Positions 48,029 through 58,084 of a stretch of 64,000 bases of DNA are shown here, piece by piece. Positions within the stretch are counted from its first letter, which is position 1; the number at the start of each line of letters is the position of its first letter. The position numbers and the translations under genes are program-made. Where the stretch lies: NCBI GenBank assembly GCA_016213105.1, contig JACRBN010000019.1, positions 124,001-188,000 on the forward strand. The letters are read 5' to 3'. The DNA is from Chloroflexota bacterium. GTDB lineage: Bacteria; Chloroflexota; Anaerolineae; Anaerolineales; Villigracilaceae. The notes beneath the pieces are model-generated. The model was not told the DNA's origin, made no database searches, and worked only from the letters and a program-made list of their open reading frames with translations.

Positions 48029-49849
48029 TCAGTCTCTTTCCTGTGGGGCAGTTTCCGTTTGTTTTGGACTGCCGCCAAGTTTTGGCTGCGGCTTGTCGAG
48101 ATATTGCTCCAGCAGCGAGGGCGCTTCGGGGTGATCCACGTGCAGGGCGTGGTCATAGTCGCCTGCCTCCACTGGCGGGTCAAAGCGGACTGGGCGTCGG
48201 ACGCCGAAGAGTTCGAAGAATTTTGTGACTCCCATCAACACGGTATAACGATATTCCTGCATTCGGAGCGACTGCCACTCGACAATGGAAGCCATTGCGC
48301 CCTGCACCCGCGCCTTGTCACGCACGATGCGGTGGATTTGCTTGGGATCGCGGAAACCGATTGGCGAGATGAGCATGGCGTTGGCGGCGAGAACCAAAAC
48401 CGCAAAGGAGATCAACACCATCCAGCCGCCCTCCTGCCATTTGCCAGCGATCTGTCCGACGAAGACAATTGCAGCCAGCGCTGCCGCAACCGATGCGGCA
48501 AACGCGCCCCATTTTCGTTTTGCCCCTGTGTAATGTTCAAGGACATGCCTGCGGATGGCGAGTCCCATGACCATGATCGGCATGAACACACCCACGCCGT
48601 AGAATGGCACAGCCACCGAGGTTTGTCCACGCACAAGGAGCATGATGATAATCGTTGCCGCAAAACCAATCGTTACGGAGCGGGTAAAGGTTCCCTGTGC
48701 GTTTCGATAGACAATGAATTCGGGAAGTTCGCCGATTGCCACGTCACGCCATTCGGTGGCTTGCAAATCCTGAAACGCCGTCATGGAAGCAGCGGACAGC
48801 AATGCCACTGCCAGGATTTGATACACCCAGAACAAAATCTCACCGCCAGGCAATTGGGTAAAGCCGATGTAGGCGAGATTGCCGACGAGGGTGCGTCCCA
48901 GTGTGCCGTCGAAGACATTGAAGCGGATGGCGAAGAAGGTCAGCATGAAGGTGGTCAGCCCGCCGTAGAACAGGAACGAGGTCTGGACGAAACGCCCAAT
49001 TCCAGCCTTGCCGCTGTAGAAATCCCACAACCCCTTGAGTTTCGGATAATGCTTCTTTCCCCATTTGACGATGCTGGCGTCTTCGTTGATAACGAACTGG
49101 ATGCCGTTGGACATGGCTTCCAAACCCGTCAGCGCAACCAGACCTTTCATGGAGGCTGTCAACAGGTGGAAGAGCGCCTGACTAAAGGAGACCTGCTTGA
49201 TGGTCTCTGCGACTTCCACAGCCGCAACGCCGCGCACGTTGGCATAAATCAAACCGCCAGCCATGAGCAGGGTCATCAGAACGAAGATTCCCAGCAGGGT
49301 AAAAACGATTTGCGCCGATTCGCCGCGTCCGCGGATGGTGAGGTACCAGGTGATTGCCGCCAGTATCCCGCCGATCAGGAAATGCCAGAACCAGTTCGTG
49401 CCGTAGAGTCCAAGCACCGAAAGCAACTGGTCGCCGCCCGAAAGCGCGGAGACGACGATGGTGAAAATGTAGTCCTGAATCAACACGACCGCCACGACCA
49501 GACTCAAACCTGGCGTCAGGTAGCGCATGGACGCGGTGTACGATCCGCCGCCTTCATTGAAAATTCCCAGCGAGTACATGTATAAAAAGCCAAATACGAT
49601 GTTGGCAACACTGATGATCGCCGCCGCAACGTAGCCCCATTCCTGAATGCCGTAGGGATGCAGGGCATGCATCATCTCGCCTGTTGCGTAGAAGTAGGAT
49701 GTGAAGTAGTCCACACCAAATAGCGCCACGGCTGCAAGCAAGCCGATTTGTCCCGCGCCGTGTATGTGAGCGCTTTCCTCCTTTTCAACGGGTGAGGCTT
49801 TGTATGCTAGAAATACAATTACGATGAGGATACCAATCGAAAATAGCAT
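48029..49849 (-). CDS. KimA/KUP-like APC-superfamily permease, probable potassium importer
   Basis: A 606-residue permease with about twelve helices. Landmarks resemble Bacillus KimA (607 residues): NEGGGSYTASMRYL in the first half, LTGLEAMSNGI, SAASMTAFQDLQATEW and PFYGVGVFMPIMVMGLAI. It lacks the longer USP-like tail of KimA, ending in a short acidic and Pro-rich segment. APC relatives carry amino acids, so that is the alternative; position between two KdpE-type systems favours potassium. It follows the unknown 353-residue gene by 21 bases. No riboswitch-like structure was seen upstream. Confidence 0.75.
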   Translation of the reverse strand: MLFSIGILIVIVFLAYKASPVEKEESAHIHGAGQIGLLAAVALFGVDYFTSYFYATGEMMHALHPYGIQEWGYVAAAIISVANIVFGFLYMYSLGIFNEGGGSYTASMRYLTPGLSLVVAVVLIQDYIFTIVVSALSGGDQLLSVLGLYGTNWFWHFLIGGILAAITWYLTIRGRGESAQIVFTLLGIFVLMTLLMAGGLIYANVRGVAAVEVAETIKQVSFSQALFHLLTASMKGLVALTGLEAMSNGIQFVINEDASIVKWGKKHYPKLKGLWDFYSGKAGIGRFVQTSFLFYGGLTTFMLTFFAIRFNVFDGTLGRTLVGNLAYIGFTQLPGGEILFWVYQILAVALLSAASMTAFQDLQATEWRDVAIGELPEFIVYRNAQGTFTRSVTIGFAATIIIMLLVRGQTSVAVPFYGVGVFMPIMVMGLAIRRHVLEHYTGAKRKWGAFAASVAAALAAIVFVGQIAGKWQEGGWMVLISFAVLVLAANAMLISPIGFRDPKQIHRIVRDKARVQGAMASIVEWQSLRMQEYRYTVLMGVTKFFELFGVRRPVRFDPPVEAGDYDHALHVDHPEAPSLLEQYLDKPQPKLGGSPKQTETAPQERD

Positions 49850-49870
49850 GTTGTTTACCTTCCAAAAAAA

Positions 49871-50932
49871 TTACGACTGAAAAGCCGTTTCGAGGGCTTT
49901 CAGTTGAGCAAGTAAATGTCTGCGGGTGGATGAATTCAGGCGCGTGTCCTGTGCAACCTTGGCTTGTTCGCCTTGTGCGGCGCGGACGACGAACGCGGGC
50001 ACGAACAGGATGCGCCCGGCGGGGATGATCTCCAGTTTGGAGGTTTCCATCTCTAAAGTCTGGTCGTCAAAATAGGAGAGGGTGATGCTCAGCCCGCGAT
50101 TCAGGGATTGCTTCTCCACCCGCTCCTTGATCCTGTGGATGATTTCCCGTGTGTTGAAATTTGCCAGCGCCCGTCCCTGGTAGACCAATTGCCCCAGAAT
50201 CCCATAGCGCTTCTGCTGGTATTCCGCGATGGCGGTGACATAAGGCGCAAGCGACAGGGCGCGGTGCAGGATCGTCACATACTGCTGCATGGAGCGAATG
50301 TGCGCCTCGGCCTCCGTCACGGAACCGACCAGCAGTTTTCCCTGGTCATCGAAAGCCACCCATTGCGGCAGGAAGAACTTCCGCGCGGCTGGGACGAAGG
50401 GGGTCTGCACCTCGCCGCGTCCGCCTTCGCTGCCATCCTCGACGATTGCGTCGCTGACTTGCGTGATGGCGGATTCAGGCGCATCGTCACCGCTAGGAAT
50501 ACTTGGGATTTGTTCATCGCCATCCGCGCGGTACGTCACCATGCGGCCCGCTGGGAGCATGGTGTTAACCAGGTGCATTGCTGCGGCAAAGCGCAGCAGC
50601 CCCGCGCTGACGGCGATTTCCTGGCTGGCCGATTTCTCCAACTCGTTCAGTCGCCGCATCAGCAGTTCACGCGTGTCGCGCTGCAGGAAGCCGCCAAGCG
50701 TGTTTTGTCTCTGGGCCTCGGGGATGTTGACCAGCGCGTTCTGTCCGTCCCGGGATGTCACCACGCGGTCAGGCAGGGAAAAATGCACCTGCGACGTTTT
50801 CGATATCAGCGCATCGGCGATGACCTGCGCCTGGCCTTCGAAAAAACGCTGAACGATGACAGGCTGGATATTGAACAACGCCTTTTGCTGTTCATATTCC
50901 TGTATCAAATGTGGAACCATATTATTTGTCAT
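49871..50932 (-). CDS. unknown 353-residue cytoplasmic protein linked to a KdpE paralogue and permease
   Basis: No family recognised. The protein is soluble, without signal peptide or membrane helices: a helical N-terminal third with many Gln and charged residues, an acidic linker (about 138-165, rich in Asp, Glu, Ser), then PAARKFFLPQWVAFDDQGKLLVG and a helical and beta C-terminal part ending in a Lys/Arg-Leu helix. Its ATG overlaps the stop of the upstream response regulator by four bases and the permease starts 21 bases downstream, so the three are almost surely one operon. A role in controlling potassium uptake is inferred from this only. Confidence 0.7.
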   Translation of the reverse strand: MTNNMVPHLIQEYEQQKALFNIQPVIVQRFFEGQAQVIADALISKTSQVHFSLPDRVVTSRDGQNALVNIPEAQRQNTLGGFLQRDTRELLMRRLNELEKSASQEIAVSAGLLRFAAAMHLVNTMLPAGRMVTYRADGDEQIPSIPSGDDAPESAITQVSDAIVEDGSEGGRGEVQTPFVPAARKFFLPQWVAFDDQGKLLVGSVTEAEAHIRSMQQYVTILHRALSLAPYVTAIAEYQQKRYGILGQLVYQGRALANFNTREIIHRIKERVEKQSLNRGLSITLSYFDDQTLEMETSKLEIIPAGRILFVPAFVVRAAQGEQAKVAQDTRLNSSTRRHLLAQLKALETAFQS

Positions 50933-51636
50933 ATTTTTTCGATTTCCTTGAGCCGATAACCGACGCCCGGCTCGGTGATGATGTGCTGCGGCCTCAATGG
51001 ATCGCTCTCGATCTTGTGTCGCAGATTGCTGATATTGACTCTAAGAAGATGGGCATCCGCCTCATAATTCCCGCCCCACACTTCCCTGATCAATTGCTGA
51101 TGGGTGAGGACTTTTCCCGCATGATTCACGAGTATTTTCAGGATGTTGTATTCGGTTGGCGTGAGGGTGACGGGCCGTTCATTGACCAGTACCTCGCGCT
51201 TAATAAAATTGACCGACAAACCGTTGTTCTGATAAACCGCGGATTCCGTCTCGGGCTTGTTGGAACGCCGCAGGGCGACCCGAATCCGCGCCAGCAGCTC
51301 ACTCGTGCCGAAGGGTTTGGTGAGGTAATCGTCCGCGCCCGCGTCGAGGGCGGCGACCTTATCCTGTTCGCTGTCCCGAACCGAGATGACGATGACGGGC
51401 ACGTCGGTCCACTCGCGCAGGCGGCGGGTCACTTCCGTGCCGTCCATGTCGGGCAATCCCAGGTCCAGGATGATCAGGTCGGGACGGTTGAGCGCCGCGA
51501 TTTGGATTGCCTCCCCGCCATTTTCCGCTTCCAAAATGGTGTAGCGATTCCCCAACGATGCGTTCAAAAAACGCCGTATGGGACGTTCATCGTCCACGAC
51601 CAGGATTTTCAAAGGGAGGTCTGAAAGGGTCGACAT
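50929..51636 (-). CDS. response regulator, KdpE-like (OmpR family) 2
   Basis: A 235-residue OmpR-family regulator closely similar to the KdpE at 44505: receiver with DDE, Asp in ILDLGLPDMDGTEV, YLTKPFGTSELLARI, and a winged helix with LTPTEYNILKILVNHAGKVLTHQQLI. No own histidine kinase is adjacent, so KdpD at 45290 is the likely donor. It is followed by the unknown 353-residue gene (four-base overlap) and the KimA-like permease. Two TCAAGAA-type direct repeats lie just upstream of its start. Start chosen at ATG 51636 rather than the preceding TTG. Confidence 0.9.
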   Translation of the reverse strand: MSTLSDLPLKILVVDDERPIRRFLNASLGNRYTILEAENGGEAIQIAALNRPDLIILDLGLPDMDGTEVTRRLREWTDVPVIVISVRDSEQDKVAALDAGADDYLTKPFGTSELLARIRVALRRSNKPETESAVYQNNGLSVNFIKREVLVNERPVTLTPTEYNILKILVNHAGKVLTHQQLIREVWGGNYEADAHLLRVNISNLRHKIESDPLRPQHIITEPGVGYRLKEIEKI

Positions 51637-51646
51637 CAATGCGCCA

Positions 51647-51664
51647 TCAAGAAAGCATCAAGAA
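51647..51664. promoter_or_regulatory. direct-repeat site A (TCAAGAA-N4-TCAAGAA), upstream of response regulator 2
   Basis: Two exact TCAAGAA heptamers with 11-base spacing, 11 bases before the regulator start. Candidate OmpR-family (KdpE-like) operator. Confidence 0.55.
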
Positions 51665-51722
51665 CGATGGACATTCTATGTTTGGGCGTGTCAATTTAGG
51701 CGCAAGAAATGCCCCCTGCGCG

Positions 51723-51740
51723 TCAAGAAAGTGTCAAGAA
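51723..51740. promoter_or_regulatory. direct-repeat site B (TCAAGAA-N4-TCAAGAA), upstream of response regulator 2
   Basis: Two exact TCAAGAA heptamers at 11-base spacing, about 87 bases before the regulator start. On the minus strand it reads TTCTTGA-N4-TTCTTGAC, which also resembles a -35 box. Confidence 0.6.
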
Positions 51741-51838
51741 AGACTCTGGAGTCGGACAGCTTGCTGTCCGATTGATCTCAACCCATCAGCGCCCACAGGG
51801 GCAGGTGATCGGATGGACTCCAGAATCGTGAAATCCGA

Positions 51839-52012
51839 TTACTGGCTGGCCCAGGATTTATACAGAAAGAACGCATTCGCCCAAACGAGCAGGAAGAGCA
51901 TCAATAGCTGGTGCTGGAATGCGCTCAGATTCAAAAACGAAGCGCCGATGATGCCTGCCAGCGGCGAATAAGTTATGACCTGCTCGATGACTCGAATGGG
52001 TTTTTTCTGCAT
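51839..52012 (-). CDS. small membrane protein, 57 residues
   Basis: An unlisted 57-residue frame: a basic N-terminus (QKKPIRVIEQ), then two hydrophobic stretches (about 14-28 and 36-51) split by an LSAFQHQ turn. AAGGTG lies seven bases ahead of the ATG. It is the last frame of the kdp group after the DUF4118-GAF gene, and two direct-repeat operator candidates lie directly upstream. No family recognised; it could be a small accessory subunit of a K+ transporter. Confidence 0.6.
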   Translation of the reverse strand: MQKKPIRVIEQVITYSPLAGIIGASFLNLSAFQHQLLMLFLLVWANAFFLYKSWASQ

Positions 52013-52055
52013 GTTTCATCACCTTTTTGACGCTACCAGTTTATTCAGTTGCGCG

Positions 52056-52073
52056 TCAAAAAGGGGACAAGAA
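52056..52073. promoter_or_regulatory. direct-repeat site C (TCAAAAA-N4-ACAAGAA)
   Basis: Heptamers related to site A with the same 11-base spacing, 44 bases before the small membrane-protein gene. Confidence 0.5.
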
Positions 52074-52087
52074 GCGGCCGAATCGAG

Positions 52088-52105
52088 TCAAGACATTGTC
52101 AAGAG
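52088..52105. promoter_or_regulatory. direct-repeat site D (TCAAGAC-N4-TCAAGAG)
   Basis: Same spacing, 15 bases beyond site C, upstream of the small membrane-protein gene. Confidence 0.5.
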
Positions 52106-58066: not shown

Positions 58067-58084
58067 TCAAGAAAGTATAAAAAT
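58067..58084. promoter_or_regulatory. direct-repeat site F (TCAAGAA-N4-TAAAAAT), kdp promoter region
   Basis: One exact TCAAGAA and a degenerate second half at 11-base spacing, 71 bases upstream of the first kdp gene and before the his promoter. Confidence 0.45.

Follow-up and report, generated by a model that had tools for sequence, protein, structure and literature searches.

P353, an orphan protein encoded with KimA-like permeases that lack the cytosolic domain, as a putative separate subunit of a Chloroflexota potassium importer

The DNA analysed here is a window of 64,000 nucleotides (nt) from the genome of a Chloroflexota bacterium (assembly GCA_016213105.1, contig JACRBN010000019.1, positions 124,001 to 188,000; C17:124001-188000 among the 28 contigs of this 5.4-Mb genome). 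Beside a kdp locus, it carries three consecutive minus-strand genes for a response regulator (KdpE2), an orphan protein of 353 amino acids (aa), hereafter P353, and a KimA-like permease (Table 1). Across related genomes (loci, genomes and contigs are numbered with the prefixes L, G and C), the constant core is P353 plus a permease without the cytosolic domain through which KimA binds cyclic di-adenosine monophosphate (c-di-AMP); the regulator, ATPase and TrkA genes around this core vary. P353 is best read as a regulatory (or assembly) subunit of the domain-less KimA-like importer. The whole unit has, in our estimation, an even chance of being a KdpDE-controlled KimA-type K+/H+ symporter with P353 as its separately encoded regulatory part.

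The association of both genes was assessed from either side. After removing genes sharing their last 100 residues, 53 P353 rows were left, and the 46 with at least 300 nt of downstream sequence were counted; the other seven have a locus end less than 300 nt away, and three of these are cut copies of genes already in the set (L097_4270, L102_3763 and L132_2). The next gene on the same strand is a permease of this subfamily in 43 of the 46 distinct genes. A P-type ATPase follows in two of the three exceptions (L013, and L126, where a permease stands immediately before P353), and in the third a second P353 follows, which itself precedes a permease. Conversely, among 57 distinct permeases, 43 of the 51 with at least 1 kb upstream have P353 directly upstream (the six with less were not counted), and in three of the 51 (L005, L010, L016) P353 is directly downstream. 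A KdpE-like regulator was found within 3.5 kb upstream of P353 in 20 of 34 testable rows. Since 43 of 46 compares with 20 of 34, the constant partner of P353 is the permease, not KdpE. An earlier reading of the sequence alone had asked whether P353 homologues always lie next to KdpE-like and KUP/KimA permease genes; the permease half of this holds, homologues in the company of mainly unrelated genes not being what was found, and its regulator half does not hold as a constant association. Among 396 genomes of this class, 23 encode the permease (E <= 1e-100) and 23 encode P353 (E <= 1e-5); both are present in 20 and neither in 370 (Fisher 1.4e-27, kinship being ignored). The permease occurs without P353 in three genomes: G160 and G255, which have the fused-domain form described below, and G669, whose permease is cut by the contig end. 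The source genome itself holds a second P353-permease pair, on C28.

The permease has no Pfam match, and among PDB sequences it matches Bacillus subtilis KimA only (E 3.6e-16 as a single sequence, 9e-23 as a profile), in line with its first designation as KimA-like. The three best structural matches of its model are KimA structures (6s3k, 8b70, 8b71; best E 1.3e-13), and by both sequence and structure searches its LeuT-type APC membrane domain is nearest to KimA. In the profile alignment, with positions mapped by counting along it, KimA D36, Y43, D117, Y118, T121, S125, T230, E233, N237 and Y377 correspond to permease D47, Y54, D126, Y127, T130, S134, T241, E244, N248 and Y417. The columns of D36, Y43, D117, Y118, T121, S125, E233 and Y377 are invariant in the 26 sequences of the permease alignment A2, that of N237 is nearly so, and that of T230 holds T or S. 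The K+, H+ and gating roles of these residues are described in passages of PMC6994465 and PMC10284832; the K+-coordinating and proton-coupling residues (D36, Y43, T121, T230, Y377, E233) are all kept. Going by these residues, the protein would be a K+ transporter; lacking the cytosolic domain of KimA, it is better called a KimA-like permease than KimA proper.

What is missing is the regulatory end. The profile alignment stops at KimA residue 450, and the domain at KimA 462-606, which binds c-di-AMP according to passages of PMC10284832, has no counterpart; beyond the last membrane helix the permease model contains helices and disorder, and a helix is predicted at residues 2-18. KimA R337, a c-di-AMP contact, corresponds to E377 in the window and is E in 26 of 26 aligned permeases; some KUP members without R337 are still inhibited, as noted in a passage of PMC10284832. 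The 51 distinct near-full-length open reading frames (ORFs) of the subfamily include 49 of 584-709 aa and two of 749 and 751 aa. A c-di-AMP synthase domain is encoded in the source genome, and a search for a ydaO-type c-di-AMP riboswitch in 40000-64000 gave no match at E up to 1. As a separate observation, the search table shows the permease match of L095 (G553:C155) continuing through a single in-frame TGA.

Two of the 51 permeases with at least 1 kb upstream (L090, L091) carry a KimA-type cytosolic domain fused on. They belong to G255 and G160, and P353 was not found in either genome at E 1e-5. The long permease of G255 matches KimA 472-604 (E 4.8e-15) and the G160 domain is 79% identical to it; ordinary Chloroflexota KimA is 29-55% identical to the fused domain, and among the 23 alignment lines listed, of 25 in all, none is a short permease. 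By eye, the fused-domain permeases are without the tail motif that is conserved in the short ones. Because P353 and the fused KimA domain are complementary in presence, P353 is read as a detached control part, and the earlier suggestion of a cytoplasmic regulator of the permease is retained in a sharper form: P353 accompanies permeases without the KimA cytosolic domain, and may gate them. More specifically, we tentatively propose that P353 is a non-homologous, detached replacement of the c-di-AMP domain, which would dock on the cytoplasmic face of the permease, answer c-di-AMP, K+ or another cue, represent a new fold family and have been exchanged in one lineage. Complementarity fits such a regulatory part, though in one lineage, better than it fits the principal alternative, a rather unlikely one in our opinion, namely that P353 helps the permease to assemble, fold or insert into the membrane and has no gating role. 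An assembly factor would nonetheless agree with the production of P353 immediately ahead of the permease (43 of 46 testable cases), with the three loci in which one P353 stands between two permeases, and with the three genomes having a permease whose P353 lies only elsewhere.

Several results weigh against P353 as the detached control part. The fused-domain cases are two related genomes of one lineage, and their R337 position is, by eye, also E. The permeases of L088, L089 and L101 (three of the 51 with at least 1 kb upstream) have neither the domain nor an adjacent P353; their genomes (G248, G028 and G686) encode P353 elsewhere, and the downstream side of L101 is cut. In three genomes with P353 this permease subfamily was not found: P353 lies at contig ends in G467 and G489, and G728 has a distant relative, a 211-aa ORF limited to the N-terminal part. 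Distance matrices of P353 and permease over 40 pairs are uncorrelated (r 0.06 with the permease's membrane part); once that part is controlled for, r is 0.19 for the tail (p 0.086), 0.24 for the tail helices (p 0.047) and 0.11 for the conserved tail motif (p 0.20), so that docking on the tail finds little support there. The permeases of L003 and L041 are closely similar and their P353 proteins clearly unlike, and the partners seem to recombine. The direction of the exchange between P353 and the fused domain is, lastly, not settled: the approximately unbiased (AU) test does not reject a basal position of the fused-domain forms (p 0.41).

On this direction, the membrane-domain tree nests the fused-domain forms (supports 92/97, 85/89 and 98/97, from a bootstrap that had not settled), and the whole-length tree places them at the base, which we put down to shared domain columns. 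That the fused-domain forms are clearly derived was considered and given up, as grouping all short forms in one clade is compatible with the AU test. Joint transfer of the fused domain with both TrkA genes was similarly abandoned: TrkA1 of the fused-domain loci clusters with its counterparts from two ordinary KimA loci (in a quick tree with a long-branch warning), and TrkA2 is closest to P353 loci (63-64% identity to L041 and L001, 57% to L094), which leaves support for TrkA1 alone. As for the permeases L003:11093-12913 and L041:7234-9051, their likeness looks like gene conversion between paralogous loci.

P353 of the window has no credible match in Pfam, NCBIfam or PDB sequences (a single Pfam row, E 0.091), as its first description as unrecognised implied; the same search with 34 members gave scattered matches, in one or two members each, with a best E of 0.0049. 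In the alignment of these 34 sequences (A1) mean column identity is 64%, and the C-terminal half is strongly conserved. Structure prediction, which had been proposed as a check, yielded a good AlphaFold2 model (mean pLDDT 85.3, pTM 0.81) and no confident structural match. The protein is predicted to be soluble, with a helix pair, beta strands and a helix pair in each half and a low-confidence, disordered linker at about 152-178. Foldseek returned no PDB or viral match below E 0.5 (best 0.88 and 0.54, respectively), and the best VIA Z against the PDB was 5.6 over 72 residues, a level rated as common by the tool; judged from the model, the fold is unmatched rather than proven new. An internal duplication, hinted at by the secondary structure, was discarded, since profile comparison of the halves gave a probability of about 1% over 32 columns. 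A search of 84,980 species genomes with eight-residue patterns of the query alone, beyond whose reach distant relatives outside the phylum may exist, found 30 loci with P353 relatives, 29 under names of Chloroflexota (some of these names assigned to the phylum by the tree tool) and one labelled as an uncultured bacterium. A match in G016 (E 2.6e-4) disappeared in the profile search and was dropped as chance; the ORF looks unrelated, and we take it to be of the ATP synthase delta type. A 211-aa ORF at L130:1435-2070 mainly covers the N-terminal part of P353, in a short locus without permease. At the level of titles and abstracts, nothing was recognised in the literature on KimA in Chloroflexota or on a P353-like partner.

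The neighbouring genes bear on two further explanations. Their labels come from BLAST against a custom reference set, in which other gene types read as unknown, and some cut copies remain in the counts over 34 and 39 rows (in the former, L097_4270 and L102_3763). A kinase gene lies within 5 kb upstream of P353 in 16 of 34 testable rows. The order KdpE2-P353-permease recurs in L001-L004 and is hence not a matter of chance: the window, L002, L003 and both modules of L004 show the 4-nt overlap (ATGA) of kdpE2 and P353, and L001 keeps the order with a longer called ORF. This overlap speaks for an action of P353 on the regulator, P353 sensing K+ or stress, controlling KdpE2 or KdpD, and lying near the permease through the shared operon; we regard this as improbable, given a KdpE-like gene upstream in only 20 of 34 rows compared with the permease next in 43 of 46, and KdpE2-permease units without an adjacent P353 (L088, L089). 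Alternatively, P353 might be an enzyme or ion-handling protein for a wider module of P-type ATPase and TrkA pair, not specific to the permease. In 26 of 39 testable rows the next 3 kb downstream contain a P-type ATPase gene, often with TrkA-type genes behind it, and in L013 P353 precedes an ATPase in a locus without permease, its genome having permeases elsewhere. Yet the window, L001-L004 and L027 keep P353 and permease with no such ATPase within 3 kb, and no match of P353 to an enzyme family or fold was obtained, which makes this a reading of low probability. Pfam (L009) and PDB sequence (L039) place the ATPase with the calcium / sodium-potassium pumps, and it may handle Na+ or Ca2+ within the same ion module; it stands 3' of the permease in many loci (e.g., L009:12924-15758, L039:12368-15199). 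A second orphan family of about 240 aa, hydrophobic by eye at its C-terminus and with no Pfam match in the members tested, is found upstream of P353 or permease (L039:8532-9257, L041:10207-11142, L016:7143-7853, L027, L028, L090, L091, L124, L129), also in loci without P353.

Within the window, coordinates confirm what had been read from the letters: the second KdpE-like regulator, its overlap with the 353-residue gene, the 21-nt spacing from P353 to the permease, and an adjoining Kdp system that is complete (kdpF, kdpA, kdpB, kdpC, kdpD and kdpE1). KdpE2 contains a receiver (PF00072) and an OmpR-type DNA-binding domain (PF00486), and its best NCBIfam match by E-value among the 107 families listed is KdpE (NF007820; 253.9 bits, below the cut-off of 325). 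KdpE1 and KdpE2 are 61% identical, and the stretch that we take to be the recognition helix is nearly identical by eye.

Table 1. Features of the KdpE2-P353-permease unit and its surroundings (window coordinates, given 5' to 3' for genes)
Feature	Position	Strand	Remark
KdpE2 (235 aa)	51636-50929	minus	OmpR-type response regulator
P353 (353 aa)	50932-49871	minus	orphan protein
KimA-like permease (606 aa)	49849-48029	minus	conserved short C-terminal tail
57-aa hydrophobic ORF	52012-51839	minus	conserved, 5' of kdpE2, beyond the unit as first described
Direct-repeat box CTTGAnnnnnnCTTGA	51647-51662	minus	immediately 5' of kdpE2
Direct-repeat box CTTGACACTTTCTTGA	51723-51738	minus	87 nt 5' of kdpE2
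Direct-repeat box	52088-52103	minus	5' of 57-aa ORF
Weaker box	58067-58082	minus	165 nt 5' of kdpF and about 245 nt 5' of kdpA
Intrinsic-terminator-like hairpin, 11 pairs	48020-47992	minus	between permease and kdpD
KdpD, full length	47938-45290	minus	probable KdpE2 kinase
KdpE1	45191-44505	minus	
kdpF	57901-57809	minus	identified by eye
KdpA	57821-56079	minus	
kdpB	56050-53867	minus	
kdpC	53465-52896	minus	
DUF4118 short protein	52918-52121	minus	between kdpC and the unit
Orphan 131-aa protein	53857-53462	minus	between kdpB and kdpC

Three exact matches to the pattern CTTGAnnnnnnCTTGA occur in the window, all at 51647-52103, before kdpE2 and the 57-aa ORF; with one mismatch allowed there are eight, an unexceptional number (6 of 100 shuffles reach it). 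Over 41 loci, L022 and L092 being the same contig, 21 exact boxes compare with 1.2 expected from mononucleotide shuffling: 16 before kdpE2 (L001-L004, L088, L089), three before kdpA and two elsewhere. The 16-mer CTTGACACTTTCTTGA is also present 73-84 nt 5' of kdpE2 in L001, L003 and L089. No exact box precedes the second L004 module, nor the other P353 loci, save for one site in L029. The weaker box of the window has a score reached by none of 200 dinucleotide shuffles. Furthermore, a matrix built from 17 kdpE2 boxes (two omitted, one each from L003 and L089; L028 excluded as short of upstream sequence) scores before kdpF/kdpA above at least 96.5% of 200 dinucleotide shuffles in nine of nine operons, with the site 243-254 nt before kdpA in six of them. 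According to a passage of PMC3264566, the site bound by Escherichia coli KdpE consists of two 6-bp direct repeats with 5 bp between them; the boxes here have the same two-half-site layout. The same type of box before kdpFABC, together with regulators 61% identical, makes cross-talk from KdpD to KdpE2 plausible. The region has 17 hairpin sites, compared with 8.5 in shuffles, and the one 3' of the permease has the most pairs; with this hairpin, and with similar ones by eye in L001 and L003, kdpD-kdpE1 is probably a separate unit. This hairpin and the boxes of its own accord with the earlier description of the unit as self-contained. No sigma-70-like promoter was found just 5' of kdpE2 on its strand. 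Relatives of the 57-aa ORF lie 5' of kdpE2 in all eight KdpE2-permease modules seen (window, L001-L003, L088, L089 and both of L004), with weak similarity in the two L004 modules (E about 1e-6 to 1e-5), which stand outside any kdp locus. The short DUF4118 protein resembles the KdpD membrane part without the kinase, and is likewise present in L001-L003, L088 and L089; the orphan 131-aa protein is also found in L001, L002 and L041.

From these elements we infer the following course of events. Low K+ or osmotic stress would activate KdpD, which would phosphorylate KdpE1 and probably KdpE2; the phosphorylated regulators would bind the CTTGAC direct repeats, and kdpFABC and the 57-aa ORF-kdpE2-P353-permease unit would both be switched on. 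P353, made just ahead of the permease, would bind its cytoplasmic face and gate or stabilise it as it imports K+, the job of the fused domain in ordinary KimA, possibly by sensing c-di-AMP.

If this is true, control of K+ uptake through a separate partner with an unmatched fold would be new, and an orphan family would acquire its first role. The fused-domain relatives that exist in nature open the replacement idea to a direct test, and the shared boxes suggest one KdpE regulon in which a primary pump is joined with a secondary importer. KimA-type importers are known to be controlled by a domain that the transporter itself carries. B. subtilis KimA, a K+/H+ symporter of the KUP family, is the best structural match of the permease model and shares with the permease the K+-site and proton-coupling residues; the permease is, however, 20-21% identical to it, lacks the cytosolic c-di-AMP domain, has E for R337, and comes with the predicted helix 2-18 and a separate orphan protein encoded upstream. 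Ordinary Chloroflexota KimA is represented by L094 of the source genome (E 6.5e-138), which is full-length with the cytosolic domain, is followed by two TrkA-type genes and has no P353 in its 12-kb locus; it is of the same superfamily, at 25% identity, and many P353 loci likewise include a TrkA pair. Compared with the KdpDE-kdpFABC system, KdpE2 is KdpE-like, the box layout is alike, and kdpFABC and kdpDE adjoin the unit. We know of no second KdpE, secondary importer or orphan protein in the standard kdp regulon, whereas here a second KdpE stands beside a secondary importer and an orphan protein.

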